From the NCBI GenBank assembly GCA_023213315.1, contig JAKCPI010006239.1, positions 211,501 to 275,500 of the forward strand: a stretch of DNA of 64,000 bases, written 5' to 3'. A program made the position numbers and the translations under genes. Positions 6,101-57,780 of this stretch are shown one piece after another. The notes beneath the pieces were generated by a model. The model was given only the letters and a program-made list of their open reading frames with translations, was not told the DNA's origin and made no database searches. Origin of the DNA: Euborellia annulipes (Eukaryota; Arthropoda; Insecta; Dermaptera; Anisolabididae). The first letter of the stretch is position 1, and every line of letters begins with the position of its first letter.

Positions 6101-9100
6101 TTGGTTTAGGTCATTGGATATCTTCCAGTCACGCATAAGCCCCAAAATTTCACAAAATAATGAAAAGTTACATTTTTATGAGTTTTTTTATATCTTTAAT
6201 ATAATTTATTTTTACTTTTTTTTAACGTAATAGTTACAGTATTTTTATTTTTTAACATAAGAACATTGTGTTTTATTATGGAGTGAATTCAAAAATGAAA
6301 AAAATAATCGCAAAAATGCCTTTGCGTGACCGGAAGATGTCAATCGAATTTGATAATTTTTTTTATTTTTTTTTTTTTTTTGTCTATATAATTCTCAACT
6401 TTTCCCCTCTATTACAACTTCGAAATAAAAAATGATTTTTTCGGCCCACCCAAATATATATGTATAGGTCTATATATAGATTGTAGTGTTATATAGGCCT
6501 ACATGTATATATGAAATACTGGAATTCCTTTTGGCATATCTATCATGAATTTAGGATTTAACCAGTAATTTATATTGACTTAAACAATGTTACAAAATTA
6601 ACACTAGCTTAGATAATGTTTACTAGCTCTGCTGGGCCACCTTTTAGTAAATCTATATAATTCTTTACATTTTGTGCTGTATGTGTGTGTAAATAAGTTT
6701 CTATATTTATTTAAAATTTTTGGAATTATTAATCATACATTAAAAAAAATAAAAAATGAGGAATTTATTTTTGTTCATCATGATATAAGATTTTCTTTTT
6801 GAAATGATTTGCATTTATGTATGAATTCGAGATCGCACTTTATTTGAGCATCTAACTATATTTTACATGAAAAGCTTATGTCTTCGTAATTTTAAGACCT
6901 TGCTGAAAGCTAATTTATAATAGAATGTAAACAAACATCTTTGCTTTAGGTATTCGAACTCTGGTCCGTGTGAATGACTCACTCTGTTCACTAGACCAAG
7001 GTCGCTTTTTTATTTTTGATCTTTTTTAGCTTATTTAAATCGTATTTAATAATACAAAATATTTTTTATTAACTTTGATAATACAAATTATTTTTTATAA
7101 TAATTGTTTGTTTATGGTTTTTTAAATCAATTTAATCTCAAAATAAAAAATCTATAGATAAGAGAGATAGCAATTAAATTGATTGATTTATTTCAATAAA
7201 AAATATACACGATACTATATATATTTTGAAAGGTGGATTAGATTTTTCTTTTTATATGCAAATATCAATATTAAAGAAAAATCAATAGAATTTAAAATAA
7301 TTTTTGACCTTTCTCAAGCTTCTAACTTAAAAAGTACATAGCAATTTAAGCTTTATTTTCTCTTTGCAAGAAAAAAGTGAGGGAATATCATTTTGCCAAT
7401 ATACTTCGATCTAACACTGCTGGGTCTTTCAATTAAACTATTTTTAAAGAGACTGTGAGGGGCAATATTAGAGCATCTCCATACGTTTTTTATGTGATTA
7501 TTTCATTGTTTTTTTTTTTTTTTTTAATATTTATGAAATATTTTTAATGGGAACTTATCTAGTTCAAACATAGAAAAGAATTTCAAAAGAGATTTTCATC
7601 TTCTTTTATAAATACAATGAAATAATCACATGGGAAAACGGGGTTCTTCAATATTGACCCTCGTTGTATGAGGAGTAGTTAAAAGTACTGAGTAATATTA
7701 ATACTGAATACTGCAGCTCCTTATCGGTGGCAAAAATGGCTGGTGGCCTAATGTTAACATCCTATTGAAATAAATAAATAAATAACGCAGCTCTGATTTA
7801 TTTATTTATAGATCACGGGTCCAATTTACATAGTTATACAGTATATTGAAATATACAATGAATGAAAAAGAAAAGAAAAAAGACACAATCCCCACTAAGA
7901 GTGTTCACATCCGGCTCAGACTAGTTTTGGTGTTTGGTGTTCCTTATTGTAGAAGTAAATATGTCCAGGGGTTCGCAACATTGATTCCCCAGCCTATGCA
8001 TTCTAACCAACGCGGCATTATAGGCATAATTCCTCTGACATATAGCCTCGTGGAAGATTCCCGAACTTCTGCTGTTGCAGGCTGGTACCTTGAAATTAAG
8101 CAGTTTGAGTAGTTCAGGGCAATTAAAAGTGAATAAAATCTTGTGCAGAGTGATCAGGTCATTCACGACACGTCTTTCATTAAATGAACTCATGCCCAAA
8201 CAGTCCCGCAGCTGTTCATATGAGATTCCTCAATCTCTCACCAGTTCTGAATCGGACGTAACGCGGAAACCTGTTCTCGACCGACTGCAGACAATCGGAG
8301 TGATTTTTTTTTTTTTTTTTGGAATGGGTGCAAGACCTATAATGACCAATAGTCACATGCAGCCAGGAAGAAAATAAAAACAAAAGGAGAAGCATAAAAG
8401 AGAAACTCAACTGCGGGAACTGAGAAGATGCCTGTTGAGGTTAGACTTGAAAGTCTGAAGATTGTGGGTTTTGGGGAAGATAGACGCAGGGAGCTTGTTC
8501 CAATCACGGGAGGTCATGGGGACAAAGGAAGAATGAAATTGATTAGTTCTGTTAGTCGTGATCTGAACAGCATAGGGATGCTGGGAAGATGCATCTCTTG
8601 TGTTCCGTGAATATGTTGCATTGGGTGGGATAATTGATTTTAATTCAGCAGAGCATTGACCATGGTAATACCTGTAGAAGAGAAAGATTTGTATAGCTGA
8701 TTGTGACTATGTACTAGTACAGTACGAGATTTATTCTTCCCTTCCTTGTTTATTTTTGATTAAGGACTATTAATACGACTATAGAGAAAAATTCGTTATA
8801 AAAGAGGATGGACAAAATGTGTTGTAGACGTCAATATAACACTTTGCCACCTAACCTTATGGTTTCGGCAGGACTATGCCCACCTTCATCAAAGGTGTGA
8901 GGAGGCACTATTAAATTTTATGATTACAATAAATAAATCTCATCCAAAAACATTGGAGATGCAAAAGGGGCGCCTCGCATTATTTTTGCCTAGACTCGAG
9001 GTGAAATAAAAAAATGCGCCTCGCTTTTCTGAGTTATATACAAGCGAGGAAATATTTTCACTTAAATAAAACCCCTACAGAATTTTATTTGTTTCATATT

Positions 9101-12100
9101 TCCTCGCTTTTATATAACTCAGAAAAGCGTGGCGCATTTTTTTGATTTCACCTCGACTCTAGGCAAAAATAATGTGAGGCCCCTTTTTGCATCTCTGATG
9201 TTTTTGGTTAAGATTTCACTTCTTTTTGTGAAATATTACATTTAAATATTATTTAACAGTTGTTTTTTTTTAATTAAATATGAAGCTATCCCATGAATGG
9301 ATCATTTATTATGCATTCAAAACTATAAACAATGTAAATACCTCGTTTATCCATTCGAAACAATAAAAATAGGATTTGTCCAAATTTTATAAAATTTTAG
9401 GGTTTTTATTTTTGTTATGTTGGTGCGTTAAAATAAGGATAACAAAAATGAATTATCCAAGAAAATAATTTTCCATGAAATTGAGGAAAGTTTTTCTTAC
9501 CAAATTCTCAAAATAAGTGCTAAATTTGTTTTTAGTTGTATTTGTTATTAATTATTATTATTTGTAGGCATATCATCGAAACAGAGGGGCCTCGAGCACT
9601 CTTCAAAGGTCTCGGTCCAAATTTGGTCGGCGTCGCGCCTTCAAGAGCAATTTATTTTTCCTCCTATCAACACTCGAAGAAAATCTTCAACTCTTTCCTC
9701 ACTCCAGACACTGCACTAGTTCATGTTTGCTCAGCGTCTGCAGCTGGTATGCATTTTATAATTTTATTATATCAATTCAATATATATTAGGATTAGGATG
9801 TGCCATGTCAAGTCTTATAGATGAGGATTTTTAATTAATTAAAATTCTTCCAAATATTCTTGTAAAAATTATGCAATATTTAAATATAAATAATGAGATT
9901 AATAGCATAATAAGCTAGTTGACTAGCCGCGAAACGCATTCCTTTTTCTTAGTATGGGAGGCCGAGAATTAGGTAAAACCCAACCCCCAGTTTATTGATC
10001 TCATTTTTTTTTAATACATAAAATAATGTAAACTCCCCTGCCAAGCGAACAATAAGAGTTCCCAACAAGTGAGACATCTTGTAGATATTTAATGCATTGT
10101 CGACGCACTGCCCTCAGCCGCAAAATCTAACTATTGACTGACTTATTTGAGCGTTGATTGAAAGAAATTCCATCAATAAATAAAGAATTATATATATATC
10201 ATTTATTGATCCATGAAGTAATTATGAAAAACATATAACCAAGTATTTATTAATTTAAATAAGCGAAAAATGTAGGTACCGCCGGGATTCGCATCACGGA
10301 TCTGTCGATTTGTACTCAACATGCCCTACCACTGGACAACAGTACCGCACTCGCTGTTGAGTAAAAATCGACATTTCGCCTATTTCAATTAATAAATTTT
10401 TGGTCATATGTTTTTAGAATTACCATCTTTTTTCAAACAAAACTCTACCTAGAAAATATTATAGTTTCTTATAGGTTATGCAGAAAATACATTAGCGGTT
10501 GCTTTCCACATTAAAATAATTAATTTGGCAAATATTTCTGATTGCCTACGCAATCCATCCTCAGTGCATCAAATTATACATATGTGGAGCGTGATTTAAA
10601 TGATAAAATTTAACATGACTAGCCATTCTACAATTAGTGAGGACGTTTTGATGAGCAAGCCTCTGAGGGAAAAATTACATCCATTATATCTGATATAATT
10701 GGTTAAAATTCATTTTACAAAAAACAATTTTTCACAGTGACCCGCTTGGCGCGCGCAATTTCTTCAGTTGCTTGTCCTCTCTTATTGTAGAATGGCTTCT
10801 CATATTAAATTTTATCATTTAAAACACGCTCCACATATGTATAATTTGATGCACTAAGGATGGATTGCGTAGGCAATCAGAAATATTTGCCAAATTAATT
10901 ATTTTAAAGTGGAAAGCAAGCGCTGGTTTATTTTCTCCATAACCTTAACGATGTATCCCAGCATTTTTAACTTCCAATAGTTTCTTATAGAAACCCAAGG
11001 TATTGTTTTTATGGAGTATAACATAATCTTAGCTGAATTGTACCTGAAGAAGGCCACAGAATGAGTGACCGCAACATTGTAATTTTGACAAATAAACCAC
11101 AGTTAAACCGAAAATCAAATTCTTTTACTAATCAAACATGTTAGTTAATTATTTTAAATCATTTATAAACAAAAAATTGTTTATTTGTCAGATGGAAAGT
11201 TAGAAATTAAAAAATAAATAATATACTCGTATTTGCTGATGTCCTATTTAAAAATTGCATAATCTTTTGAAGATTCAATTAATATTTTAAAATTTTTATT
11301 ATCTCAGATTGTTTTTTTTTTTGTTAATATATAATTGAGTGATAAATAAATTGAAGTTTATCCTGAACATGATAAGAAAAATAATATAATATTTACTATA
11401 TAATAGTGTTTTTGATAAGAACAAACAGAATTCAAATTCTGAATGATGAAGCCTTGAAATCATCTTTGTTTTTGCTATTATATAAAGATATCTAACTCCG
11501 GAACTTTTAACATAATATTTCTATAATTCTTTAGATGTTGATTAAAAGAATAGATCTTTTTTCTACTGTCTTGTCTAATTCTGTTTCTGGCTAAAAGCCA
11601 ATATAATCCCTTGGTTCATCTTGCCAACTCGAGTGCCAATTGATTTTTATTTGGAATATTGACAAATATTACCCTCTCTTTAGTTACTATTAATTTTAAT
11701 TGTATAATTAATTTATATTTTCATTAATAATTTAGCAAATATTTATTATACAATTAAAATTAATAATAACGAAAGAGAGGGTAATATTTGTTAATATTAT
11801 TAATTGGCACAAATTGGGGCAAAATGCGGCGCTTGACCTCCCCTCCTCCTGCCCCGTCCCCCATGGGGGTCACAGCGGTAATCACGTATGTCTGTTATTT
11901 TGTCCTTTTGAGACTATTCATTAATTAATAAGGAATTTATCAAAAATACTTTTAGTATTTATTATCTTAAATAGTTTACTAAAATGAAAAGAATTTAATC
12001 TCATTAATCATCGGCAAAGTATCACCTAAAATCACTATTGTATGTTTTTTTTTTTTTTTTTGAAGGTCATTTTATTTTCTTTCCCAATACGTAGGCAGGC

Positions 12101-15100: not shown

Positions 15101-16799
15101 TTTATTATTAAGCTCTGTCGAATTTTATAATTTCTTCAAGATTTGAGAAATGAGAAGTGCAAATAAAATCAAAGTCGAAAAAATAAATTTCTATGCCTAG
15201 AGTAGCCAGAATATTTTTTTTTCCTTTGAGGGAAGTGGAGGTTATAAAGAATAATTTATCAATAAATCAATGGAAAAAGATCATTAAATATGGGTCCATT
15301 AATTTGTTTAATTTTTTTATATATATATTTTTGAGATTTTTTAGGGGATACCCCATATACCCTTCTGGCTACAGACTTTAGTAAGCTTCAATACTAACTT
15401 CGTCGTCTCGTTAGATATTTTTGATTTAAAATTTTTTTAAGCAAAGTTTTATTGTGAAGGCCACAATTGAATTGGTCTAAATAAAAAAACGATTTTTTTT
15501 TCTGTTTGCAAGTTTATTTATTAGGCATGAGCGACTAGGCTAGCATACAGTTTCGATGGCTTGATCCATCATCATCATCAGGCCTGAATATATATCAGAA
15601 AATAAATTTAAAAAAAAAAATTAATTCTTTAAACAATTGAATACATTTTTATATAGGCATTTATGGTATTTTTTGTATAAAAAAATTAATTCTAATTTTT
15701 TAGCGATAAGAAGTGACTGTAGACTTTGAATTGGATCTAGGAGACTTTGCAGCCAAGGAATTAAATAAAAAAACTTATTTAATTGTTAACCGTCGATGTT
15801 TCGGTCGCAAATCACGACCTTCCTCAAGACGATTAATTGTTAAAATATAAGATTAACAGTATATCTTAATACATATAGCTTAAATAATAATAATATTGTA
15901 TAATTTGCAATGATAATTAAAAATAATACTGTTAATCTTGTATTCTAACAATTAATGGTCCTGAGGAAGGTCGTGATTGCGACCGAAACGTCGACGATTA
16001 ACAAATAAATAAGTTTTTTATTTAATTCCTTGGCTGCAAAGTCTCTAGATTCAATTCTAATTTTTTTTTTTTTTTTTTTTAATTATGCATTATATTTGCC
16101 TAAAAATCTGTAAATATTATTAAAAAGATTAGAATTAAGTTTTTTTTATATATAAAATACCATCATCATTATCATTACCATATATAAAGCGCTAGTCATT
16201 CACTTCCAGTCTATGGTTTATGTACGTAAGAGGGAAATTTAAAACTTTAAAATTTTGCAAATGCTCGCCGAAGGTCCAAAATTTCCAAAAAGTGAGCAGC
16301 AATAATAATAATAAATTTGATGCATTTGCTCGCCGAAGGCGATTGAAAATTTGTTGGTTTCAATTTCGCAATGATTTTTTGATGTATTTTCAGGCCTGAT
16401 GATGATGGACCAAGGCATCGAAACTGTATCCTAGTGCAAACAGAAAAAAACAATCATTTTTTATTTAAACCAATTCAATGGTGGTCCTCACAATAAAACT
16501 TCCCCTAACAAAATTTTAAATAATTATCAATTGTGCAAATTGATAGGCCTATTTAGGATATTTTTGGTTTTGCAGAAGTTGCCCGGACTAGATTGAGAGA
16601 AGAGGGCAATAAGTACTGCTCTTTCTGCCAAACACTGACTACTGTCTACCGAGAAGAGGGCTATCGAGGTCTCTACCGAGGCCTAGCAACTCAACTCATT
16701 CGCCAAATACCTAACACAGCCATCATCATGGCTACCTACGAGGCAGTGGTCTACACCCTCACCAAATATGGACATGCTGGTTTCTATCAATCCACTTGA
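2455..16799 (+). CDS. Rim2: Mitochondrial pyrimidine nucleotide carrier, complete six-exon gene
   Basis: Exons 2455-2495, 2559-2834, 9568-9746, 13903-14027, 14108-14321 and 16576-16799 join to 1059 nt, giving 352 residues plus TGA, all with GT-AG introns and consistent phases. The start is the first ATG after an in-frame TGA at 2446-2448. Three mitochondrial-carrier repeats are visible, with signature motifs PLEVVK (residues 26-31), PIWFVK (175-180) and PHEVAR (277-282); the Trp in the second motif is typical of this subfamily. [17 protein letters not shown] and QIPNTAI blocks are also present. Family members exchange pyrimidine (deoxy)nucleotides across the inner mitochondrial membrane for mtDNA and RNA synthesis. 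The loop after the first motif, with RRKLS and a VQCLRHI block, resembles insect Rim2 more than vertebrate SLC25A36. Nothing is missing or frameshifted, so the gene looks functional. Confidence 0.97.
2559..2834 (+). CDS. Rim2: Carrier gene exon 2
   Basis: Runs from helix 1 ([10 protein letters not shown]) through PLEVVKTR into a long polar matrix loop and ends in VQCLR before a GTAGGG donor at 2835. Reading on through the donor gives an immediate TAG at 2836-2838, which confirms the splice. The loop (about residues 37-95) is Lys/Ser-rich with RRKLS, a feature of insect-type Rim2. The antisense open frame covering 2478-2945 is a shadow. Confidence 0.96.
3100..3132. repeat. (AT)n microsatellite
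   Basis: Uninterrupted AT dinucleotides. Confidence 0.95.
3747..3815 (-). ncRNA. tRNA-like remnant
   Basis: Read on the minus strand this has AGGTGATAAAGCAGCTAAGC (A-box-like) and CGAGTTCAAATCCACC (B-box-like) at tRNA spacing. The acceptor ends do not form a clean seven-pair stem, so it is more likely a SINE or foldback head than a working tRNA. Confidence 0.4.
4513..4611. repeat. Decayed foldback of the 17.5-kb family
   Basis: Inverted arms around TCTATCGAATAAAACT and its complement at 4590-4605. The interior shows, on the minus strand, a degraded version of the hammerhead-like segment intact at 17811-17843 (the CTGATGA box is lost, GAAACG is kept). Confidence 0.6.
6950..7010 (-). ncRNA. 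tRNA-like sequence
   Basis: Minus strand reads TTGGTCTAGTGAACAGAG (A-box region) then GACCAGAGTTCGAATAC (B-box region), with a GTGA/TCAC hairpin between them in the anticodon position. Acceptor pairing is poor. Probably a tRNA-derived repeat head or pseudogene. Confidence 0.45.
7921..8300 (-). mobile_element. Non-LTR retrotransposon reverse-transcriptase tail, frameshifted
   Basis: On the minus strand a frame from 8199 to 7921 encodes [36 protein letters not shown] and [20 protein letters not shown], the typical C-terminal region of jockey/CR1-like reverse transcriptases. The block just upstream ([17 protein letters not shown], about 8290-8235) is in another frame, so the copy is broken. Only the 3' end of the element is present, as expected of a 5'-truncated insertion. 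Confidence 0.75.
8407..8715 (-). mobile_element. Non-LTR retrotransposon reverse-transcriptase C-terminus
   Basis: One uninterrupted minus-strand frame ends at a TGA (8409-8407) and includes [35 protein letters not shown], then [19 protein letters not shown] and [15 protein letters not shown]. The order HPY - RT - SF.P - WN.LP - LQ.FK..LN.HL is characteristic of the tail of jockey/CR1-type open reading frame 2. A stop lies just upstream, and no catalytic core is present. Confidence 0.8.
8862..8892 (-). ncRNA. Hammerhead-like motif, first core base changed
   Basis: Minus strand: TTGATGA, A, GGTGGG - CATAGT - CCTGCC, GAAAC. The stem closes with two G-T wobbles. C3 of the usual CTGANGA is T, so cleavage activity is doubtful. 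Confidence 0.45.
8940..9430. repeat. Foldback repeat family A, copy 1
   Basis: Arms of about 110 bp (8945-9060 and 9100-9212) are inverted copies that include CCTCGCTTTTCTGAGTTATA and the segment AAAAACATTGGAGATGC. Their loop is about 43 bp. A non-palindromic tail (9212-9430) follows. The same loop, right arm and tail recur at 26290-26730. Confidence 0.85.
9568..9746 (+). CDS. Rim2: Carrier gene exon 3
   Basis: Begins with the last base of Arg106 and encodes [20 protein letters not shown], then [12 protein letters not shown] and the start of repeat 2, ending in SASAA plus one base before a GTATGC donor. [14 protein letters not shown] is the conserved short matrix helix and loop of carrier repeat 1. 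The exon follows a 6.7-kb intron full of repeats. Confidence 0.97.
10225..10430. repeat. Foldback with tRNA-like apex
   Basis: About 45-bp arms (AAAAACATATAACCAAG at 10226 and its diverged complement ending near 10427) enclose a 72-nt tRNA-like sequence at 10275-10346. Arms differ at several positions, so this is not a sequencing hairpin artefact. Confidence 0.8.
10275..10346 (-). ncRNA. tRNA-like cloverleaf at foldback apex
   Basis: The minus strand folds with a seven-pair acceptor stem (GGTACTG / CGGTACC, one G-T), a four-pair D stem (GTCC / GGGC) with AGTGGTA loop, and a five-pair anticodon-like stem (TGTTG / CGACA) with a nine-base loop AGTACAAAT. The T arm (GCGAATCCCGG) is imperfect. 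The enlarged anticodon loop and weak T stem argue against a normal tRNA. The same family appears at 47785-47885 with compensating changes. Confidence 0.6.
10472..10949. repeat. Long foldback
   Basis: Arms of about 170-180 bp (10472-10650 and 10780-10949) share, in inverted form, GCCTACGCAATCCATCCT, CACATATGTATAATTTGATG and TTTTATCATTTAAA. The centre (about 10650-10780) is unpaired and slightly GC-richer. No coding content was recognised. Confidence 0.85.
11044..11075 (+). ncRNA. Hammerhead-like motif, decayed
   Basis: CTGAAGA box intact and stem mostly kept (GGCCAC / GTGACC), but the second box reads GCAAC instead of GAAAC. It belongs to the family intact at 24389-24420. Downstream sequence (TAAACCACAGTTAAACCG) matches the same family. 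Confidence 0.5.
11631..11815. repeat. Foldback
   Basis: GTGCCAATT at the left end pairs with AATTGGCAC at the right. The arms (about 70 bp) include CAAATATTACCCTCTCTTT and its complement. Short AT loop. Confidence 0.8.
12520..12763. mobile_element. Foldback MITE with TA target duplication
   Basis: Starts CAGCCTTTCTTTAAGGTGG and ends with its complement, flanked on both sides by TA (12518-12519 and 12764-12765), as for Tc1/mariner-type insertions. The arms pair for about 110 bp up to a poly-T / poly-A apex near 12620-12660. No transposase. Confidence 0.8.
13903..14027 (+). CDS. Rim2: Carrier gene exon 4
   Basis: Completes a Gly codon and encodes [20 protein letters not shown] and the following loop to KRIYSKN, with a GTTAGT donor. 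It holds the second signature motif PIWFVK, where Trp replaces the usual acidic residue as in other SLC25A33/36 proteins. Confidence 0.97.
14108..14321 (+). CDS. Rim2: Carrier gene exon 5
   Basis: Encodes [20 protein letters not shown], then [10 protein letters not shown], a hydrophilic linker and [20 protein letters not shown], ending in PH plus one base before GTAACT. It covers the end of repeat 2 and the fifth helix. It is separated from exon 4 by an 80-bp intron. Confidence 0.97.
14674..14747. mobile_element. 74-bp hAT-type MITE with perfect 8-bp duplication
   Basis: Ends CAGGGCCTCAGACAG and CTGTCTGCGCCCCTG are inverted repeats. The insert is flanked on both sides by ACTTTGAG (14666-14673 and 14748-14755). 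The interior is mostly a long C run. The size leaves room for little beyond the terminal repeats. Confidence 0.9.
15550..15581 (-). ncRNA. Hammerhead-like motif
   Basis: Minus strand: CTGATGA, T, then GATGATGG - ATCAAG - CCATC, GAAAC. It pairs in inverted orientation with the copy at 16396-16424. Confidence 0.5.
15798..15827 (-). ncRNA. Hammerhead-like motif, decayed
   Basis: Minus strand: TTGAGGA, A, GGTCG - TGATTTG - CGACC, GAAAC, followed by ATC instead of GTC. The first core base is changed. It is the inverted partner of 15961-15992. Confidence 0.45.
15961..15992 (+). ncRNA. Hammerhead-ribozyme-like motif (best candidate)
   Basis: CTGAGGA (15961-15967), one A, stem GGTCG (15969-15973) / CGACC (15980-15984), then GAAAC and GTC (15990-15992). 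Sequence before the core (TTAATGGTC) pairs 8 of 9 with that after the GTC (GACGATTAA), as stem I of a type I hammerhead would. The deviation from the textbook core is one extra A between CTGANGA and stem II. ACGT after GAA could form a two-pair stem III or a dimer, as described for hammerheads in Penelope-like elements. Confidence 0.6.
16396..16424 (+). ncRNA. Hammerhead-like motif
   Basis: CTGATGA, T, GATG - GACCAAGG - CATC, GAAAC. Inverted partner of 15550-15581, with altered loop and retained stem. Confidence 0.5.
16576..16799 (+). CDS. Rim2: Carrier gene exon 6 (last)
   Basis: Starts by completing Glu of [16 protein letters not shown] and encodes [40 protein letters not shown] and a short tail, ending at TGA 16797-16799. 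This carries the third signature motif and the sixth helix. The C-terminal tail (HAGFYQST) is short. Confidence 0.97.
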
Positions 16800-16954: not shown

Positions 16955-17523
16955 TATATCAAAAATTATTTAGTCAACAAGTCCAAAAAAAAAAACATTT
17001 TCTACAAAAAGCCTCTACGATTTTGTTAAATAAGTTTCAAACTATTCATTATATTTGTTTGAAGGTTAATTAATAAAATAGTATCTAAGAAATTATATAC
17101 TCGTATATCACGTATGGGTCCGTGATGAAAATTCATATAATTAATATTTATTAATTCTAACAGCCGACTACTATAGTTAGTTTATATTTTTGACAAATTT
17201 GGTTTTACATAGAAAGAGTTAATTATTTTTTATGTTGGTATTACACATTGGAATTTTTATTTTTTTCATCTTTTCAAAATTTAGAATTGAAAAGAAATTT
17301 AGTTTATTATTTCATTTAAGTTTTTGCTACATTAATGATGTTTATTAATGTTGTAATAAAATCAAAAATTTGTTGTAATCAAGGAAAGATGTTTTTAATG
17401 TCAAACATTTAAATATACAAAAATGTTGATAATAGAAGTGGCTGTTCAGCAATTAGAATGAAGGAAGAGAGGATGTCAGCCAAAAAGGAGCCTCTATCGA
17501 ATAAAAATCTCCAATCAGAAAAC

Positions 17524-17556
17524 GTTTCGGGTTTAATTAGATAAAACCATCATCAG
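17524..17556 (-). ncRNA. Hammerhead-like motif
   Basis: Minus strand: CTGATGA, T, GGTTT - TATCTAATT - AAACC, C, GAAAC, GTT. AGAA before the core pairs with TTCT after GTT (short stem I). Confidence 0.55.
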
Positions 17557-17810
17557 TTCTTTAGAGATTATTGGCAATCTCAAGATGCACACCATTGAGA
17601 TGCAGATAGAGTTGTTATATATATATAAACATATACAAAATTGTCTATATCATATAGACATTTGAGACTTGGCCGTGTTGACTGATGAGCATCTGACAAC
17701 TGATATGCAAATTTTGTATTTTTTATATAATTTTGTATATGTTTATATATAACAACTCTATCTGCATCTCAATGGTGTGCATCTTGAGATTGCCAATAAT
17801 CTCTAAAGAA

Positions 17811-17843
17811 CTGATGATGGTTTTATCTAATTAAACCCGAAAC
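17811..17843 (+). ncRNA. Hammerhead-like motif
   Basis: CTGATGA, T, GGTTT - TATCTAATT - AAACC, C, GAAAC, GTT: identical in the core to its inverted partner at 17524-17556. Confidence 0.55.
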
Positions 17844-18102
17844 GTTTTCTGATTGGAGATTTTTATTCGATAGAGGCTCCTTTTTTTGGCTGACATCCTC
17901 TCTTCCTTCATTCTAAATATACAAAATTAATAATAGTGTTGCCATAGAGCGATGTTTCCCAACAGGTGGTCCGATGACGATGTCTTAGGAGTCTGCGAAA
18001 TGTCACTGAGAAATTAATTAAATTAGTTTGTGTTTAACTTGACTTGCAGTAGCAGATTTCGAGCTCAAAGAACCTTATCCTTTTTAAACATCAAGAGTAA
18101 CA

Positions 18103-18986: not shown

Positions 18987-19524
18987 ATATACATATTTAT
19001 TATATCTACTTTTGTATAGGCACACTTGCTCTTAGCAACACTATTATGAATTTTATTTGTATATTTAAATGTTTGATATTAAAAACATCTTTCACACGTT
19101 CACAACAAATTTTTGATTTTATTTCAATTTAATATATAAATACACCAATTAGTATATCTATTTTTATAGTGATCTCTCCCATTTTATCCAGAGGAAAAAA
19201 AATGGAGTTGTGGTTCGAGAGCAGCGGGCGAGATATGCCCAACAAACACAAACTCACCCCGCAAAATAGCTTTATCTTAAATCATTAAGTTTATACAGAC
19301 AAAAATTTTTGTAAAATTGTTTAAACTTAAAATTTAATTTCAAATTAAAAATGAAAATACCGTATTTTTTTTTAATTTAATGTTTTTACGAGAAAAAATG
19401 CTTATTAAATGGCACTCGATTAGGGCCAAAGAGAGAGACGATTATTCCTTCATTTATACCTATTATATTTTAGAATTTTTAGGACTATACATTTCAGAAA
19501 GATTATTTTAAAAAAAGACCAACA

Positions 19525-23585: not shown

Positions 23586-24261
23586 TGGTTCAAAGCAAAA
23601 GTGGACCAAATAAACAATTTTCTTATTTTTCCCTTTTTGGATAGTAAATTATGGTAGTTATTCGGTGTAATAATGAACCATGTCAAAATTTCAATACTAA
23701 TCCTCCAGAGTGCAAAAGTTCCTTAAGGTGCGCGTCTCGGAAAACCGTTAAACCACGATTGACTCGAGGGGCACCAGATGGCGTTAGTGTTCCCCCATTA
23801 GAATACACACAACTTGATCCATTTCATTCTAGACTTTCCAGCTAATTAATTAAAGGCAAAAAATTAATTATTTTTTAACACAATGATTACTAATTTAATT
23901 ATATATACGATATAGAGCGGATTTTTTTAAATATCTTTTATTTAATGCGATTAATCAAAAAAAAATTTTTTTTTTGAAAATCAAAAAAGGGCTTCTATAA
24001 GTTGTAGATATTTTAAATAGCTTTAATTTAAAAAAAAATTTGAGGTCGATAGCTTCAAAATTATGGCCGCTGGAAAGTCCCAAAATTAGCACCCCGAGAC
24101 CGCACCTTAATGCAAGAAAAGAAAAATATCTGAAAAAAATTCTAAAAATCCAAGAATATGAATGATAAAATTTAAAATGTGTACTTAGATAAAGTATAAT
24201 ATAAGTTAGTAAAAGAATTAGATTTTCGGTTTAACTGTGATTTATTTGTAAAAATTACAAC

Positions 24262-24293
24262 GTTTCGGCCACACATTCTGTGGCCTTCTTCAG
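24262..24293 (-). ncRNA. Hammerhead-like motif
   Basis: Minus strand: CTGAAGA, A, GGCCAC - AGAATGT - GTGGCC, GAAAC, GTT. GTAC before the core and GTAA after it allow only about three pairs next to the core, then an internal loop. Confidence 0.55.
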
Positions 24294-24388
24294 GTACAAT
24301 TCCACTAAGATTATAAAGGTTGTTACATCTGTGATAATCTCAATTGAATTCAATTGTAATAACCTTTATAAACTTAGCTGAATTGTAC

Positions 24389-24420
24389 CTGAAGAGGGCC
24401 ACAGAATGAGTGGCCGAAAC
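24389..24420 (+). ncRNA. Hammerhead-like motif
   Basis: CTGAAGA, G, GGCCAC - AGAATGA - GTGGCC, GAAAC, GTT. The single base after CTGAAGA is G here, so GGGCCAC/GTGGCCG-type pairing of position 10.1 differs from the sister copies. Six-pair perfect stem. Confidence 0.55.
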
Positions 24421-47700: not shown

Positions 47701-50700
47701 CTTAATTTATATAAAAATTAAAAATTATTTATATAATTAGATATTACTTCATGTACCCGAAAAAAGATATAAGGGTGTGCCGCCGGGAGTTGAACCACGG
47801 ATCCACCGATTTGCGCTCAGTGTGCCCTTACCAAGGGCCCCTTATCAATCGGTGGATCCGTGGTTCGACTCCCGGCGGCACACCCTTACATCTTTTTTCG
47901 GGTACATGAAGTAATATCTAATTATATAAATTTCCGTTTCGCGGCTTATCTACGCGATATATATAATATCTTAAATATTATATATAATTTCTTATTTAAA
48001 AATTATTTTACAAAGGGTGTGTTACTTGATTAATAATTTTAAAAAATATATTTTTACAAAATAAATAAAAATTAATTAAAAGATATTTTTATCAAATAGG
48101 CCCTATGCTTTTTAACAAGTTTGTTATTTAGCATCTTTAAAAAAAAAATATGAATAATCTATCGGTTTTATAAGGAATAAAACCATGATGGTATCAACTT
48201 TTTGAAATAGCAATAGTATTACAAAGAGAATAATACAGTGTCTAATATTGTTGTCCTGGCTTTGTATTGAAAACATTTATCAAATATTAATTTTTATTAT
48301 ATTATTATTTCCTTGAATATTATCTAGTCAAATATTTTTATTTTCATTACAATAATAAAAATAAAAATAATGTTTATTTATTATATATATATATATATAA
48401 AAAAAAACACATTACATTCTATAACAGGTAGAGAGTTTATTTATCATTTAGTAATTGAGGAAAATATATTTTATAATAAAATATTTTAAAATTTTGGTAT
48501 TAAAAAAAAATATATATATTATATATATATTTTGACTGACCAAAAAGTTTAGTAGGTTGTCCCAGAAAGAAAGCAATGACTCATTTTAAAATGAAAAAAA
48601 TAAAATGACAACTTTTGTTGTTTAATTGGTTGAAAAGAATTCTAATTAAGATTTTCATCTCTTTTTATAAAAAAAAAAGTGAGTGGCATAATTAAGAACT
48701 ACACTTGAGTTTTCTACATGTGATTATTTCATTGTTTTTTTTTTTTTAATATGAACAAATTTTAATAGAAATTATGGTCCGAAACTTGGAAATTTTTCAT
48801 TAAAGAATTCCATCTAAGTCGCGTGGGATGTTGAGATTTGCTCGACGTTTCGGTTCTCCTTTTGGAGCCTTTTTCAAAAGAGAAGGGGGTTAGGAGGTAA
48901 TGATGGAAGGAGGGTTGTTTACGGGGTCGCAGTCCTGCTGGTCCCCAGGTCTGTTTGGTGGATGCCTCAGAGGTTTGGGTTTGTCTCTGAGATCTGAACG
49001 AAGATTGTTTGGATGTAATCGGTTTTGTGTTTGTTGGAGTCTCCGAGGCTTCTGCTTGCTCTAAGTATCGATCGGATCTTACCAGCAAGCAGAAGCTTCT
49101 AAGAACACGATTACACCCAGCCAATCTTCCTTCAGATCTCAGAGACAAACCCAAACCTCTGAGGCATCCACCAAACAGACCTGGGGACCAGCAGGACTGC
49201 GACCCCGTAAACAACCCTCCTCCATCATTACCTCCTAACTCCCTTCTCTCTTGGAAATGTCGAAAAAACTTATCTTCGCAATATATATGGTATTATAATA
49301 TTTCATAAAGTATTCAGGATTTCAAAGAAGAATTGTTCAGCCTTTTTTATATAATATATTTTAATTTTTTAACTTTTTTTATGATTTCGCCCTTCAAAGT
49401 CATACAATCAAACTGTTTTGTCAGAGGATAAGATGAATGTGTGCTAGACAAGATATCATGAAGAAAGGTCAACCCGCATTTACAAAGATTAAATAAAATA
49501 TTTTATTTAAAAAAAGCTGCAATTTTTTTTTTAAATGATGTAATCAACAAATAGCTTAAATCAATACTAAAAAAACTTTCATTGAACATCAGATTCAGTT
49601 GCGCTTTTTCATGGTAATCTTCTAATCGAAGATTTGATATAAAATTAGAGCTCAACATTTTTCTGTTCCAAGGAGGGTGAAATAATGAAGAAAAATTAGT
49701 TTAATAAAGTAAAAAAACAAAAACAATGCCCATTAAATATAAAAATTTAAGGTATTTTCATACATTATATATAAAAGAGATCTTAATTTTATGGTTTAGA
49801 ATGTATAGAACCTTAATATTTGTCATTTATAAATTCTTCCAAGTTATAGAATGTAAATGAATATTTATGATTAAAAATTTTTTATGCAAAAATTGAAGTG
49901 AATTGCAAGAATTGAAAGAAAATATTAAAATATAATCAATCTTATTGGTCACATAAAATGGAGTACTTTTAAAAGATGTGTTATTTTTTCAATTTATTAG
50001 CATGTTTGATGGAAAAGGCCAAATATATTAACGGCGTAAAATTAGAAGTGTAGAAAAATTAAAAATTAAAGAATAAATATTCAAAATGCATTAGTATAAG
50101 CAAGCAAGAAACCAAAACAATCAATAAAAATATAAAAATATTATTACTTACCCCTCCTCCTCTTATAAGTTTTCTTCTCAACTCTTCGGATGGATTTTTG
50201 AAAATATGTTCTTGAGATATGACCTTTTTAATGGGTGGACCACCTGGTTGTAGATACAGATCATATGTGAGATGAAGCTTTCTTGGTTCATCGTGGCCTT
50301 TGAAATAGATGTCGATGGGCATGTTAAATCCTGCATAGCCGGATTCCTTGACACTATACGGAGGCTCTTTAATAACTATAAATATAATAAAATATATTAA
50401 TAAAATACTGTATATAGTCTAAAATATTTTTTTTAGAATGATATTCAAATTCTTCCCTTTTGCTGAATTAAATCATATGAGAAGATACTGTCACAATTGC
50501 AGAATCTTTTTTATAAATAAATATATAATATAATTAAGTAATAGGGAGGAAAGTAAAAAGGCTGCCCTTCGCTTATTTTCTTAATCATTCGCATTAAGCT
50601 TTAGTCCCACCTTAAGTCAAAATATATATATATATATATATAAGTTACTCTATACTCTATATGTCAGTTACTCTCGGCCTGGGGAGTAGGCAGGTTGAGC

Positions 50701-51663
50701 CCCGGGAACCAAGAGCTAACACCCCGACTTGGGGAGTGGGCAGATTGAGGCCCCAAAGTCAACCCAAACCAAACACAAACCCGATTACACAGAACCAACC
50801 ACTGTCCATTCCTCAGAGACAAACCCAGACCTCTGAGGCATCCACCAAACACACCACCAATACACCGACTTGGGGAGTAGGCAGATTGAGGCCCCGTAGT
50901 CAACCTAAACCGAACACAATTACACACAACAGACCTTCCTCCAGCTCTCAGAGACCAATCCACGCCTCTGAGTCATCCACCAAATTGACCTGGGGACCAG
51001 GAAGACTGCGACCACGTAAACAACCCCCTCCACCATTACCTCCTAACTTCCTTCTCTCTTGAAAATGGCTCCAAAAGGAGAGCCGAAACGTCGAGTAGGT
51101 CTCAGCACCCCACGCGACTTAACCCGAGAAAACTTGTCTTCGCATATATAAATATATATATATACAGGGTGTCTCGGAAGTGGCGGGAGTAATTGTTGGG
51201 GTCGATAGAGGAAAAAAATTCTGAATCGAAAGTTCCTGAGCCAAAAATTTTTTTGGGCCTTAGAAAATTAGTTATTAATTAAAAACGATAGCCAATCAGG
51301 AGCACGCTACAAGAGAATCACAAGTGAGTGGGATATTTCATTAATTACACTAATTAATAAAATATTTCGAATAAAACCAAAGCTCTGTCTAATGTCAGGG
51401 GAAATTCACTTTCTTTGTTTGTAATTAATATTTTATTAATTATGTAATTAATGAAATATCCCCACTCACTTGTGATTCTTATCTTTATATATATATAGGG
51501 TAAGAGCTCGTGGTGCCATCCAAGTACCCACAAGATGTGGGCCCCTGAGCGAAAAGTAAAAAGTAAAAAACCCAATAAAACCCAAATAACAGTGGGTTTT
51601 ATTAATTGAAAACCTCAAAAAACCCACTGGGTTTTGCCCACCTGGGGAAATTTTATGCCAACC

Positions 51664-51715
<52 letters not shown>

Positions 51716-51919
51716 GGTTGGCATAAAATTCCCAGGTGGGCAAAACCCAGTGGGTTTGAGGTTTTCAATTAATAAAACCCACTGTTATTTGGGTTTTATT
51801 GGGTTTTTACTTTACTTTTCGCTCGGGGCCCACATCTTGTGGGTACTTGGATGACCACGAGCTCTTACCCTATATATATATAAAGATAAGAATCACAAGT
51901 GAGTGGGGATATTTCATTA

Positions 51920-52403: not shown

Positions 52404-53924
52404 GAAGACAAGTTTTCTCGGGTTAAGTCGCGTGGGGTGCTGAGATTTACTCGACGTTTCGGCTCTCCTTTTGGAGCCATTTTCAAGAGAGAAGGAAGTT
52501 AGGAGGTAATGGTGGAGGGGGGTTGTGTCCCCCCGGCACCCCCTAGTTACGCCCATTACCCCCTAAAATATTTACCATATATATAATATAGGTACATATA
52601 CATATATATTACAGTTTCAGGAGGAATGGTAAATATTTTAGGGGGTAATGGGCGTAACTAGGGGGTGCCGGGGGGCGCCCCTCCCCCCTCCCAGCGAGGA
52701 TGGCTGGCCCCATGGCCCCCCAGCAGCCAAATTCTCTAGTTACGCCTATGGTGATAGTATAAACGAATTGCAATACAAATTTCATATAACATGTGTCAAA
52801 TTTTTAATGAGTCCAGAGATACAGTTATTAGTATTACACCGTTTGCTATGTGAATTTAACGATTGTCAAGAGTAGTGTTTTGTTGTTGACATTGAATGTT
52901 TTCAACTGACATCGTGATTTGTTGGCCAATTGTACTGTACTGTATCGGTTAAACATGCCGCACGAACTTGCACATACCATATCGGTATAGTCAGCATGTG
53001 TAAAAAAGTGCGGCATGTTTAAACGATACAGTACAATACAATTGGCCAACAAATCACAATCTCATTTGAAGACATTCAATATCAACAACAAAACAACTGT
53101 TACAATCATTAAATTCTCATAGCAAACGGTGTAATACTAATAACTGTATCTCTGGACTCATTAAAAATTTGACACATGTTATATGAAATTTGTATTGCAA
53201 TTCGTTTATACTATCAAAAAAGAGACGTTACCACAGACTAGCTTAAAGGACTCAAGACAAAGGTAACCATCAAGGAAAGGAAAGAGTCAGACGAAACACT
53301 AAGACAAGACAAGTAGTAGAAAAATTTACAAAGAAATGGATCCAAAAAAAATTTATGAAAACTTTGAAATAAATGAGAATTAATGATGAACGATAAACTC
53401 AATAAAGTATGGAAAAATACTATTTCCTTCTGTGTTTATTATGTTGTGAGCTAGACCTATAAGAAAACAATCGGCTAAAACTGAGAGAGGAATCTAATAT
53501 ATAATATAATAAACAATAATTTTGAAAAAAATTTAAACAAAATACATTATTAAAACTTGCCATTACTCTACAATAAAAAGGTCGACAAGAGAGATGTGTG
53601 ATTAACTTTTTTAAATAAGATGTTTAAAGTTTCAAATTATAAACTGGTGAAAAAGAAAAACATAAAACATCCTATCATTAATCTATATAAGTTTAAAGAA
53701 AAGTAGTTTAAATGTATAATTATAAAATTATAAAAAATGATCTTACCTCTCTTTGGTTTTGAAAATGTTTCATGGAGATGAAAAACTACTTTATCCACGA
53801 AATGGCTGATATTTGTATTATCTGTCCCTTTAACAAATACTTCCCAATCATGGGTAAAACCCTCAGAAGTACTTTTATTTCGAATAGATGCGTGATGGCC
53901 AATATCAAACGATACTTTAACACA
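37116..53924 (-). CDS. MLLT3/MLLT1 (ear) homologue: AF9/ENL-family YEATS-domain protein, N-terminus missing
   Basis: Confident exons 53924-53747, 50375-50152 and 38798-37116 join in phase (694 residues); a candidate exon 44878-44759 would add 40. The YEATS domain (first about 135 residues) keeps GFTHDW, a HETF loop and ESGYAGF, so the aromatic cage equivalents of human AF9 F28, F59 and Y78 are present and acyl-lysine binding is expected. Then a 480-residue Lys/Ser/Glu-rich linker with basic stretches such as KKRKRK. The last 66 residues are the AHD (TFDFDLCALDRTTVKRLQDF), which in the family binds AF4, DOT1L, BCOR and CBX8. The protein should act in nuclear transcription elongation (super elongation complex / DotCom). 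The start codon lies upstream at higher coordinates or outside the window; Drosophila ear begins almost exactly where exon 53924 starts, so the missing part may be only a few codons. Confidence 0.95.
40732..41924. mobile_element. hAT-type element with perfect 8-bp duplication
   Basis: Begins TAGAGACCGGAC and ends ATCCGGTCTCTA. CTTATAAG flanks both sides (40724-40731 and 41925-41932). The ends have repeated AAGCATAAAAA blocks. The middle contains a tRNA-like sequence (41175-41243) and another GC-rich element fragment (41335-41700) ending TATACGCCCCTTG. No transposase was recognised. Confidence 0.88.
41175..41243 (+). ncRNA. tRNA-like sequence inside the hAT element
   Basis: GGCTTGGCGTAGTTAATAGC (A box) and GAGGGTTCGGATCCC (B box) at normal tRNA distance. 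The T stem is good, the anticodon stem weak, and acceptor pairing not clean. Likely a tRNA-derived SINE head or captured pseudogene. Confidence 0.5.
42044..42770. mobile_element. Pogo/Tigger-like element, non-autonomous
   Basis: Left end CAGTCAACTCTCGATAATTC and right end GAATTATCGAGAGTGGGCTG are inverted repeats of the Tigger type, with TA on both sides (42042-42043 and 42771-42772). The interior has no DDE transposase frame. Confidence 0.8.
44064..44353. mobile_element. MITE with hAT-like ends
   Basis: TTAGAGCAGGGGTTCC and GGAATCACTGCTCTAA are inverted repeats bounding about 290 bp of AT-rich DNA. No clear 8-bp duplication, so the superfamily is uncertain. Confidence 0.6.
44759..44878 (-). 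CDS. Candidate AF9/ENL linker exon (40 codons)
   Basis: Between a TGTGTGCAG acceptor and an AAG|GTATCC donor on the minus strand lie 120 nt, open and in phase 0 at both ends, as the neighbouring exons require. It encodes VGVVGSDITGDRQFEGPTNS and TMARPTKLSNESGKKMPKPK, a Ser/Lys-rich linker-like peptide. The stretch is clearly GC-richer than the surrounding intron and is not part of any recognised repeat. The donor is weak (GTATCC), and an unrecognised repeat could explain the composition. If real it directly follows the YEATS domain. Confidence 0.5.
47727..47932. repeat. Foldback with tRNA-like sequence in its arms
   Basis: Near-perfect arms from ATATAATTAGATATTACTTC inward. The inner part of each arm is a tRNA 3' half (GGTTCGACTCCCGGCGGCAC and its complement), and the loop supplies an A-box-side fragment (GTGTGCCCTTACC read on the plus strand). 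Confidence 0.85.
47785..47850 (-). ncRNA. tRNA-like sequence, same family as 10275-10346
   Basis: Minus strand reads AAGGGCA, stem CACTG - loop AGCGCAAAT - stem CGGTG, then GATCCGTGGTTCAACTCCCGG. It shares the nine-base loop with 10275-10346 while the first three pairs of the stem are all changed and still complementary. Confidence 0.5.
48775..49265. repeat. Foldback of the TWG-repeat family
   Basis: Arms 48870-49060 and 49080-49260 share CTGGTCCCCAGGTCTG, GCCTCAGAGGTTTGGG and GGAGGTAATGATGG in inverted form. At 48843-48885 the minus strand has a decayed hammerhead-like segment (GGCTCC / GGAGAACC, GAAACGTC, with CTGANGA altered). Confidence 0.85.
50152..50375 (-). CDS. AF9/ENL exon: YEATS part 2
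   Basis: Completes Val and encodes IKEPPYSVKESGYAGFNMPI, DIYFKGHDEPRKLHLTYDLY, then NPSEELRRKLIRGGG, ending exactly on a codon before GTAAGT. This is the second half of the YEATS domain including the reader tyrosine in SGYAGF and the closing helix RRKL. Confidence 0.97.
50655..51130 (+). repeat. Minisatellite-like tandem region with open frame, TWG-repeat family
   Basis: Three to four copies of a unit starting GACTTGGGGAGTAGGCAG are spaced 45-140 bp apart, interleaved with copies of CTCAGAGACAAACCC. One plus-strand frame (50661-51062) stays open through all and encodes repeated TPTWGVGRLRPQSQP-like peptides. It ends beside a decayed hammerhead-like segment (51064-51105). It matches the arms at 48870-49260 and 52400-52530. 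Confidence 0.7.
51064..51105 (+). ncRNA. Decayed hammerhead-like motif of the TWG-repeat family
   Basis: TTGAAAA, T, GGCTCC - AAAA - GGAGAGCC (one bulge), GAAAC, GTC. C3 and G8 of the core are changed, so cleavage is unlikely. Sister copies at 48843-48885 and 52449-52490 (minus strand) share these changes. Confidence 0.4.
51480..51935. repeat. Foldback with (AT)n at the apex
   Basis: Arms of about 185 bp (51480-51666 and 51712-51900) share GGGTAAGAGCTCGTGG, GGGTTTTATTGGG and GGGAAATTTTATGCC in inverted form. The loop is an AT dinucleotide run (51667-51711). Flanking this, 51300-51480 is a separate palindrome around AATCACAAGTGAGTGGG, repeated again at 51890-51920. Confidence 0.88.
51667..51711. 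repeat. (AT)n microsatellite at foldback apex
   Basis: About 22 AT dinucleotides. Similar runs at 51925-51953 and 52367-52402. Confidence 0.95.
52530..52690. repeat. GC-ended palindrome, hAT-like
   Basis: CACCCCCTAGTTACGCCC at 52539 pairs with GGGCGTAACTAGGGGGTG at 52648. GTAACTAG and CTAGTTAC are typical hAT terminal sequences, and a further CTAGTTACGCCTATGG lies at 52737-52752. Confidence 0.6.
52752..53216. repeat. Near-perfect long foldback
   Basis: Arms of about 230 bp starting TGATAGTATAAACGAATTGC. The outer 110 bp of the two arms are identical, the inner part has scattered differences. The apex is near 52980 (CATATCGGTATAG). No coding content or target duplication was found. Confidence 0.92.
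53747..53924 (-). CDS. AF9/ENL exon: YEATS part 1
   Basis: Follows a TTTTAG acceptor and encodes CVKVSFDIGHHAS, then EGFTHDWEVFVKG and ISHFVDKVVFHLHETFSKPK, R, plus one base, before a GTAAGA donor. It corresponds to strands 1-4 of the YEATS fold with two of the three cage aromatics. The frame is open from the first base, in phase 0. Confidence 0.97.
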
Positions 53925-55125: not shown

Positions 55126-55664
55126 TCTAATCTTTATAAAGAAATATAAGCCATATAAGAAACAGTAAATAAAAGACTTATTAAAAAAATTTTAATTTTG
55201 TACATATGATATATCATTTTTTTACTAGGTTTAATGCAGATTAATAATTTATTATTAAAATTTTAATTGCATGCATAGTTTTCAAATTATTCAATGGGCA
55301 AACGTCACATTGTGAATGCCTTAATATAATTAAACCAAAAACTCTATATAACATTTGACACATGTTATTAATTCTTAAATTTCCCCTGATTCCAAATAAC
55401 TAAACCCCTTTTAATTATATGATCTAATTTTAGAGTTATTGACGATCAAACATAAGCCAAACTCGGGCCTAAAGGCCTGACCACCAAATTCTATATTATC
55501 GAAAAAGCTTATTTAGCATTGTCTGATTAAAACCAAATTTTTACCAGAGATTTATAATTAAAAAATGAGTTTTTTTCTAAAGTTTCATTGAGATTGGTAA
55601 AGAAATAAATAAAATATTGACTATTTTGTAAATTGAGTTTTAGAATTCGGGATTCCGAATTGGT

Positions 55665-55725
55665 AAAGAGAGCGCTCTGTGAACCGGGTCTAGGCTTGAA
55701 TCTGAGATCCCAATTCTAAAACTCA
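55665..55725 (+). ncRNA. tRNA-like apex of the 1.3-kb foldback
   Basis: GGGATTCCGAATTGGTAAAG and CTAGGCTTGAATCTGAGATC resemble A- and B-box halves and form the unpaired loop of the foldback. Weak similarity. Confidence 0.3.
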
Positions 55726-56239
55726 ATTTACAAAATCGTCAATATTTTATTTATTTCTTTACCAATCTCAATGAAACTTTAGAAAAAAACTCATTTTTTA
55801 ATTATAAATCTCTGGTAAAAATTTGGTTTTAATCAGACAATGCTAAATAAGTTTTTTCATATATATGGAATTGGGTGTTGATGTCATTAAGGTCGAAAAT
55901 AAGCTTAACTTTGATCGTCAATAACTCAAAAATTAGATCATATAATTAAAAGGGCTTTAGTTCTCTGGAATCAGGGGAAATTCAAGAATTAATGACATGT
56001 ATCATATGTTAGATAAAGTTTTTGGTTTAATTACATTAAGGCATAAACAATCTGACGTTTGCCCATTGAATTATTTGAAAACTAGGCATGCTATTGATAT
56101 TTTTATTATAAATTATTAATCCGCATAAAAATTAATGAAAAATGATATATCATATGTGGAATATTAAAATTTTTTTAATACTTCTTTTATTTCATGTTTC
56201 TTATATGGCTTTATTTTAACTTAAAAAAAATAACTAAAG

Positions 56240-56335: not shown

Positions 56336-56709
56336 TTTTTTTTAATCATATTATCCATTTTCATTTTATTTTTAATTCTAACTTATAATTTCATTTATCT
56401 GTCATTATAACGAGAGAAAGGATTTGTGGAATATAAATTTTGGTAACCCTATGTTTAGGGAATTTTGACAAATTTTTAAATAACTTTTTTTATTTATGTT
56501 GGCATGAAGCAATTACGCTGGCTGGAGTTGGAGAAAGAATCTGGAGGAGCAAATGAGCAGGATATTATCACAGATTAATGATATATCATTAATGAGGAAC
56601 TTGGCCAAAAAAAGGTTAGGAAACACTGGATTATGGGGGGGGGGGGCGCAAGTTAGACGCTTGCCACAGGCGCTTCATACCCTTGTTACGGCACTGCCAG
56701 GGAATTTCA

Positions 56710-56800
56710 ATTGTTACAAATAAACCACAGTTAAACCGAAAATCAAATTCTTTTACTAATGATAACAACTGTGAAAGCCTAAACTTCAAAATTCTAAAAT
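56710..56800 (+). repeat. Fragment of the 24.3-kb foldback family
   Basis: AAACCACAGTTAAACCGAAA and GTGAAAGCCTAAACTTC match the outer right arm of 24345-24500, directly next to the hAT right end. Confidence 0.7.
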
Positions 56801-57345: not shown

Positions 57346-57381
<36 letters not shown>

Positions 57382-57592: not shown

Positions 57593-57604
57593 TTGAGATC
57601 TCAA

Positions 57605-57780
57605 ATCAATATTTTGGAGTTTAGACTTTCACAGTTGTTATCAATAATAAAATAATTTGATTTTCGGTTTAACTGTTGTTTACTTTTAAGAGTTATAACG
57701 TTTCGGCTACTCATTCTGTGGCCTTCTTCAGGTGCAATTCAGCTTAGATTACAAAGGTTGTCACATCTGTGACATCACAA
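57605..57780 (-). repeat. Left arm of the 24.3-kb foldback family
   Basis: Matches 24200-24335, including TTGATTTTCGGTTTAACTGT and the motif segment at 57700-57731. The partner arm is absent. Confidence 0.75.
57700..57731 (-). ncRNA. Hammerhead-like motif
   Basis: Minus strand: CTGAAGA, A, GGCCAC - AGAATGA - GTAGCC (one mismatch), GAAAC, GTT. Confidence 0.5.

Follow-up and report, generated by a model that had tools for sequence, protein, structure and literature searches.

The stretch analysed here, which we call the window, comprises 64,000 nucleotides (nt) of the insect Euborellia annulipes (assembly GCA_023213315.1, contig JAKCPI010006239.1, positions 211,501 to 275,500); it is AT-rich animal DNA (71% AT). 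Within it lie twelve copies of a hammerhead-like RNA motif and six short foldbacks, which we examined for their relation to hammerhead ribozymes and to Penelope-like elements (PLEs). Each site reads CTGANGA followed by a single additional base, then a hairpin and GAAAC, and all twelve are present where a preliminary description of this DNA had placed them, six on the plus strand and six on the minus strand (true 5′ ends of the latter at 15581, 17556, 24293, 30951, 31965 and 57731). The CUGANGA and GAAA core is found in 12/12 sites by construction of the finding. A strict scan of the window (CTGANGA, 0–2 bases, at least 4 uninterrupted pairs with G-U allowed, GAAAC/T) retained 7 of the 12, every one with exactly one inserted base, against an average chance expectation of 0.15 in 60 first-order Markov simulations of the window. 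The five sites that fail the strict rule (57731, 17811, 17556, 31086 and 35846) are excluded by a mismatch, by a C added ahead of GAAA or by decay.

Grouping by BLAST and alignment gave A (24293 minus, 24389 plus, 57731 minus), B1 (17556 minus, 17811 plus), B2 (30951 minus, 31086 plus), C (15961 plus), D (15581 minus, 16396 plus), E (35846 plus) and F (31965 minus); B1 and B2 are subfamilies, which leaves seven groups and six families at most. The twelve sites are not independent, and the covariation among them is real with few families behind it. Against the preliminary estimate of about seven further decayed sites, BLAST and nhmmer recovered five decayed or partial copies: 4613–4479 (minus), 11008–11146 (plus), 56705–56773 (plus, 3′ part only), 15827 (minus) and 34589–34534 (minus). 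Each of the six foldbacks has a minus-strand copy on the left and a plus-strand copy on the right, with heads meeting centrally and 3′ ends pointing outward; in C and E the left-hand copy has decayed. The features, in which LTR stands for long terminal repeat, are as follows.

24206–24504: foldback of family A, read as a head-to-head pair of PLE pseudo-LTR ends, the left arm stopping at the short site (..CTTTTACTAA) and the right arm extended by a tail of ~29 nt (..CTAAACTCCAAAA)
24195–24205, plus: left target-site duplication of foldback A, TATAATATAAG
24505–24515, plus: right target-site duplication of foldback A, TATAATTTAAG
24259–24293, minus: candidate minimal hammerhead A, left arm (CTGAAGA-A-GGCCACA..TGTGGCC-GAA-ACGU-U)
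24389–24423, plus: candidate minimal hammerhead A, right arm
17436–17914: foldback of family B1, left arm tailed, right arm tailless (bounds by eye)
17521–17556, minus: candidate minimal hammerhead B1, left
17811–17846, plus: candidate minimal hammerhead B1, right (stem I AGAA/TTCT; stem II GGTTT/AAACC and one extra C; ACGU-U)
17411–17435, plus, and 17915–17936: left and right copies of the B1 target duplication
19028–19121, minus: empty site, an uninterrupted sequence related to the B1 target
30819–31178: foldback of family B2, left arm with an AC-rich tail of ~26 nt, right arm tailless (bounds by eye)
30915–30951, minus: decaying candidate hammerhead B2 (ACUGU-C)
31086–31122, plus: decaying candidate hammerhead B2 (ACUGA-U)
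30557–30684, minus: empty site, an uninterrupted sequence related to the B2 target, within a larger inverted repeat around B2
15702–16057: foldback of family C, between the arms of foldback D and flanked by TAATTTTTT; left arm with a ~25-nt tail, right arm tailless (bounds by eye)
15961–15992, plus: candidate minimal hammerhead C (stem I GTC/GAC then TTAAT/ATTAA; GGTCG/CGACC; ACGU-C)
15795–15827, minus: decayed partner of 15961 (TTGAGGA, ACAU)
15424–15603, minus: left arm of family D, candidate hammerhead at 15581–15546
16374–16521, plus: right arm of family D, candidate hammerhead at 16396–16428 (ACUGU-A)
35846–35878, plus: motif of family E (ACGU-C) with a decayed stem II; its inverted partner, also decayed, at 34534–34589
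31939–31965, minus: motif of family F, present once, with an intact stem II (GACAA/TTGTC) and a decayed cleavage site
57697–57731, minus: motif of a single family A copy with tail (copy at about 57605–57781)
11008–11146, plus: single family A copy, 5′-truncated, short 3′ end, decayed core (motif 11044)
56705–56791, plus: family A copy with a tail, truncated at its 5′ end within the ribozyme or just beyond it
4479–4613, minus: decayed single copy of family B

Kinship of the motifs with hammerheads is supported by stem I and by a cleavage triplet directly after GAAAC, two features that lie outside the original pattern. Permutation tests used seven hand-picked, better-kept copies, one each of A, B1, B2, C, D, E and F, with copies 11044 and 4583 left out; B2 was represented by 31086 for stems I and II and by 30951 for the cleavage triplet, the more favourable choice for stem I and the triplet. 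When the three bases 5′ of CTGANGA were compared with the three bases 3′ of the cleavage base, 18/21 stem I positions were paired (permutation mean 9.0), a result equalled in 2 of 5040 permutations. Less favourable copies gave 17, 16 and 14 of 21 (as good in 5, 10 and 12 of 5040), and removal of B2 gave 15/18 (1 of 720 as good). Stem III was counted as five bases where ACTG is read; counting four throughout still yielded 18/21 for stem I. In 10 of the 12 sites, all except 31086 and 31965, GAAAC is followed by GT[ACT] or TGT[ACT], compared with 9 of the remaining 98 GAAAC sequences in the window (Fisher P = 1e-7); among the representatives the count is 6/7 (P = 2e-5), or 5/7 with 31086 as the B2 copy. 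Stem II, read with one inserted base, forms 25 of 28 pairs (permutation mean 19.4; 16/5040 as good), which bears out the preliminary claim of a covarying stem II, although few families underlie it. The hammerhead-like identity proposed at the same time is likewise supported by stem I and the cleavage triplet.

A looped helix III is absent from these motifs: in 10/12 sites, ACGU-H or ACUGU-H stands directly after GAA, so that the self-complementary ACGU (or ACUGU, the form found in groups B2 and D) occupies the place of helix III. Two ACGU RNAs could form a four-pair helix III together, and ACUGU could do likewise around a U-U mismatch. Minimal type I hammerheads without the non-conserved helix III nucleotides occur in thousands in animal genomes, some of them in PLE pseudo-LTRs, and are described as cleaving via dimers (PMC7761336, PMC6155905). 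The sites described here likewise have no helix III nucleotides and agree with the minimal PLE type as defined in PMC7761336.

Folding models gave a graded picture. For both copies of the family A foldback, the unconstrained minimum free energy (MFE) structure consists of stem I (with an internal loop) and stem II, with the core open. The cost of the hammerhead fold over the MFE is 0.8 kcal/mol for C, 2.3 for B1, and 0.9 (16396) and 3.0 (15581, with a shifted stem II) for D. On these models, preservation is good in A, B1 and C and less clear in D, and B2, E and F are decaying. The preliminary suggestion of a variant or a relic thus turned out to hold on both counts, the motif being a minimal variant of which the B2, E and F copies, at least, have decayed.

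Positions in the motif follow hammerhead numbering, in which the canonical stem II starts directly after A9. Shark repeats carry CTGATGA-A-hairpin-GAAACGTC, a likeness that first prompted the idea of a widespread repeat. The canonical arrangement is not seen here: the shared one-base insertion of the preliminary description is present in all 7 strict sites. Perreault et al. (2011) describe core insertions after A6, at 13a and near C3, as well as a U10.1-U11.1 mismatch; an insertion after A9 is not mentioned in the portion of that text available to us (PMC3088659). We scanned viral contigs (presumed phages) with two versions of the pattern, one including the extra base and one lacking it, the former requiring the extra position by design, and called a motif complete by a geometric test of our own (minimum lengths of 4 for stem II, 3 for a looped stem III and 3 for stem I). 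Complete type I motifs made up 18/44 matches with the base and 17/38 without it; in bacterial genome contigs they made up 2 of 120 among the matches listed (bacterial and archaeal scan, at least 120 matches). L007, included in the 18, has a canonical reading; without it there are 17 inserted-base motifs with 13 distinct cores, the inserted base being U in 16 of the motifs and C in one. The viral contigs with complete inserted-base type I hammerhead-like motifs are:

L002, L012–L014, L016, L017, L019–L021
L023–L026, L036, L038, L040, L041

These motifs resemble those of the window in the single base, in them mostly U, that separates CUGANGA from stem II, and differ from them in having a looped helix III. 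Because 17 complete motifs carry the inserted base, the insertion appears compatible with a three-helix hammerhead, and judged from these sequences it need not mean decay. A start codon beginning at A9 would give A9-U-G, which is the insertion of groups B and D (CTGATGATGG). A contig examined as possibly animal, L001, showed short phage- or bacteria-like open reading frames (ORFs) by eye, and L036 had no match in phage records. Some contigs with hammerhead-like motifs also hold type-P5 twister ribozymes above gathering score (L025 675–741, minus; L178 1318–1377 and 1810–1867, both minus), and L034, which has an incomplete type I-like match, carries a type II hammerhead just under gathering (6159–6220, plus; 34.2 of 37 bits).

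The search with Rfam hammerhead models suggested in the preliminary description called no hammerhead when run on the window. The complete motifs served as a control. At gathering thresholds, 15 loci, of which 12 carry complete inserted-base motifs, yielded no hammerhead call; with E values up to 2 admitted, seven loci, five with complete motifs, yielded none at their pattern sites; and eight loci with complete canonical motifs gave one sub-gathering match at a pattern site (L175, HH9, 26 bits). Altogether, 14 complete motifs with the extra base and 8 without it were given to Rfam, with one sub-gathering match overall, and Rfam 15 made no hammerhead call in the 13 of the 17 inserted-base viral loci that it was given. 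A negative Rfam hammerhead scan is accordingly weak evidence, since three-helix viral motifs, with or without the extra base, mostly go uncalled.

The ends of the elements were then compared across families. Family A copies share common 3′ ends and differ in their 5′ cut points (11008 plus, 56705 plus, 57731 minus). They have two 3′ ends, a short one (..CTTTTACTAA; 24293 minus, 11044 plus) and one ~29 nt further on (..CTAAACTCCAAAA; 24389 plus, 57731 minus and, with one change, 56705 plus). Counted from A9, the short and long ends fall at +81/82 and +110/114 in family A, at +96 to 98 and +115 (to 123 with a later boundary) in B1, and at +91 to 94 and +119 in C, and two alternative 3′ ends are present in three to four families. 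In 4/4 resolvable foldbacks (A, B1, B2 and C) of the 6, the tail, of ~19–30 nt, is found on one arm only. Target duplications are above chance for A, B1 and C, for which 0.65%, 0.3% and 0.3%, respectively, of 2000 random flank pairs reach the observed score; the aligned flanks are TATAATATAAG/TATAATTTAAG in A, TAATTTTTT in C and about 22–25 bp in B1. The uninterrupted target relatives of B1 and B2 overlap both the left and the right flanks, making the duplicated part visible.

Together, these observations make a PLE origin and hammerhead descent of the motifs very probable. We are confident that the motifs are minimal type I hammerheads in the pseudo-LTR/ORF-start segment of several PLE families in an animal genome, and in all likelihood the elements are short copies, mostly two 5′-truncated pseudo-LTRs joined head to head with one hammerhead per arm. 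A cluster of odd foldbacks would thereby be explained by one known element type. The preliminary description had named Penelope-like elements and retrozymes as known carriers of hammerheads; the ends, tails, truncations and target duplications speak for the former, and the lack of tandem copies in the window against the latter.

Several observations weigh against this interpretation. The long end of B2 lies at +127 and its short ends are unequal (+87 and +101); the arms of D end at +120 and +152; the match to known PLEs is thus not uniform, and D and E are not among the resolvable foldbacks. Flank-to-flank alignments of B2 and D are not above chance (28% and 27% of 2000 random pairs are as good), the B2 target duplication being seen through its uninterrupted relative only. 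By eye, the B1 and B2 target duplications measure ~22–26 bp, against the 8–10 bp cited for PLEs, and the tails of ~19–30 nt compare with 31 nt in Adineta vaga Penelope and 30–40 nt in the Anolis carolinensis element Poseidon (PAc). The B1 arms are 97–100% identical, whereas the target copies at 17411–17435 and 17915–17936 differ by an indel and a mismatch, possibly through gene conversion between the palindrome arms or because the boundary is off. The hammerhead fold is not favoured for B2, E and F. No PLE reverse transcriptase (RT) or GIY-YIG ORF was recognised in the window among 34 ORFs of at least 90 aa inspected by eye, only 5 of which were Pfam-scanned. Finally, Rfam called no hammerhead, either in the window or in two motif regions. 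This silence we do not weigh against the hammerhead reading, because complete motifs elsewhere are mostly missed too, but that control relies on our own geometric test as its standard and is not independent proof. The loose fit of the tails and of the B2 and D ends slightly lowers our confidence in the combination of PLE and hammerhead.

We propose that the foldbacks arose by two-sided initiation. RNA would be cleaved after ACGU-H, probably only via a dimer that forms the ACGU/ACUGU helix III and/or together with the PLE protein. The PLE endonuclease would cut both DNA strands with a stagger, reverse transcription would initiate independently at each end at one of two internal template sites, and the two complementary DNAs would meet mid-way and be joined head to head. 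The foldback copies themselves are probably poor ribozymes, because a transcript would hold the ribozyme and its complement, mostly pairing together. That the foldbacks formed in this way we regard as an even prospect, and we favour it over self-priming (snapback) of the same PLE elements on an antisense template, as proposed by the authors of the Adineta vaga study (PMC3846280), which we hold possible but on balance unlikely. Self-priming would fit the closer similarity of the arms of one foldback to each other than to other copies (97–100% in B1) and the palindrome at the family A junction (CAATTGAATTCAATTG, 24341–24356). However, a single molecule copied back on itself should give equal outer ends, whereas the arm ends are unequal, with the tail on one arm only in every resolvable foldback, which argues for two starts; moreover, no palindrome with arms of at least 7 is found at the B2 and C centres, and such palindromes account for 102 entries window-wide. 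Four foldbacks cannot settle the question. Counts of foldbacks with differing arm ends could distinguish the two models of PLE integration, self-priming and two-sided initiation, on genome sequence alone. The broader, joint proposition, that the foldbacks are fossils of two-sided integration with proximal and distal starts and that the insertion separating A9 from stem II is the mark of a distinct, recurrent hammerhead subclass in animal PLEs, where helix III would form in dimers only, as ACGU or ACUGU, and in phages, a subclass hardly seen by Rfam models, is tentative, and we think it rather doubtful.

The other explanations are far less probable. Foldback DNA transposons of the miniature inverted-repeat transposable element (MITE) type with a captured hammerhead-like hairpin would account for the inverted arms, the short size and the want of a recognised ORF, yet the arm ends are unequal by ~20–30 nt, single family A copies share their 3′ ends and vary in 5′ truncation, the target duplications range from ~9–13 to ~25 bp, and the 3′ geometry relative to the ribozyme is alike in A, B1 and C; we consider this very improbable. 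Slightly less probable still are metazoan retrozymes, small non-autonomous elements spreading via circular RNAs made from type I hammerheads. The type I-like layout and the AT-rich, non-coding sequence suit them, and they may use PLE enzymes (PMC7229834, PMC7761336), but published accounts give retrozymes as tandem repeats from which circular RNAs of ~170–400 nt arise. No looped helix III is found here, and a BLAST search of 12 regions against the window returned inverted partners, dispersed copies and low-complexity matches and no adjacent direct tandem copy. Both were rejected, retrozymes for the lack of tandem direct repeats in the window and DNA foldback transposons for the unequal ends and variable target duplications. 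The least probable explanation of all is that the hairpins arose by chance, or that their pairing is kept only by the common descent of the repeats. The 12 sites do reduce to about 7 groups (B1 and B2 being related) and the arms of one foldback are copies, but the group-level permutation tests of stem I, stem II and the cleavage triplet reject it.

Beyond the motifs, the window holds the following gene pieces.

37116–38798, minus: AHD exon of an AF9/ENL-like gene
50059–50418, minus, and 53637–53924, minus: YEATS pieces of the AF9/ENL-like gene
2536–2838: piece of a mitochondrial carrier gene

It also contains further inverted repeats. Nested inverted repeats surround foldback B2 at 30432–31471, the outer 40 bp being 98% complementary, and the DNA flanking B2 reads by eye like a relic of a mariner-type transposase. 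Another foldback, with 210-nt arms that are 85% complementary, lies between the family E arms at 34818–35365 and has no CTGANGA..GAAA match inside. The strong foldbacks at 51607–51768, 52532–52672 and 55564–55795 gave sub-gathering matches to microRNA families and are probably other inverted-repeat elements; all Rfam microRNA-family matches in the window are sub-gathering and correspond to foldbacks and AT repeats.

The elements can be set beside three known systems. In PAc (PMC11167929), whose ORF has stem II at its start, the RNA is cut 26 nt and RT starts 111–118 nt inside that ORF; the 30–40 bp tail is the stretch between two RT start sites; the hammerhead cut only when PLE protein was added; and in vitro the protein cut and extended both DNA strands, without apparent strand difference in the start site. 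PAc thus shares with the present elements a hammerhead at the ORF start and two 3′ ends, 30–40 nt apart there and ~19–30 nt here, and the tailed ends in the window, 110–127 nt from A9, compare with its RT start. PAc, unlike the copies here, encodes RT and endonuclease and is arranged in tandem, whereas those of the window are mostly inverted pairs without a recognised ORF. Adineta vaga Penelope has head-to-head inverted pseudo-LTRs with palindromic junctions, an optional 31-bp tail on one pseudo-LTR and target-site duplications of 8–10 bp (9–10 bp in inverted pseudo-LTR elements) (PMC3846280). The foldback arms of the preliminary description match this arrangement in the head-to-head inverted pseudo-LTRs, the one-arm tail, the palindromic junction and the target-site duplication. 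The Adineta vaga elements differ in being mostly ORF-bearing, with hammerheads unmentioned in the accessible part of that paper, whereas the arms here are joined directly. In the portions of the literature on inverted or non-autonomous PLEs with hammerheads that were available to us, we found no description of this arrangement with hammerheads. The minimal PLE hammerheads, as described in PMC7761336 and PMC6155905, agree with the motifs of the window in CUGANGA, stem I, stem II and GAAA, in having no helix III beyond the core, and in their dispersal in non-coding DNA and pseudo-LTRs.

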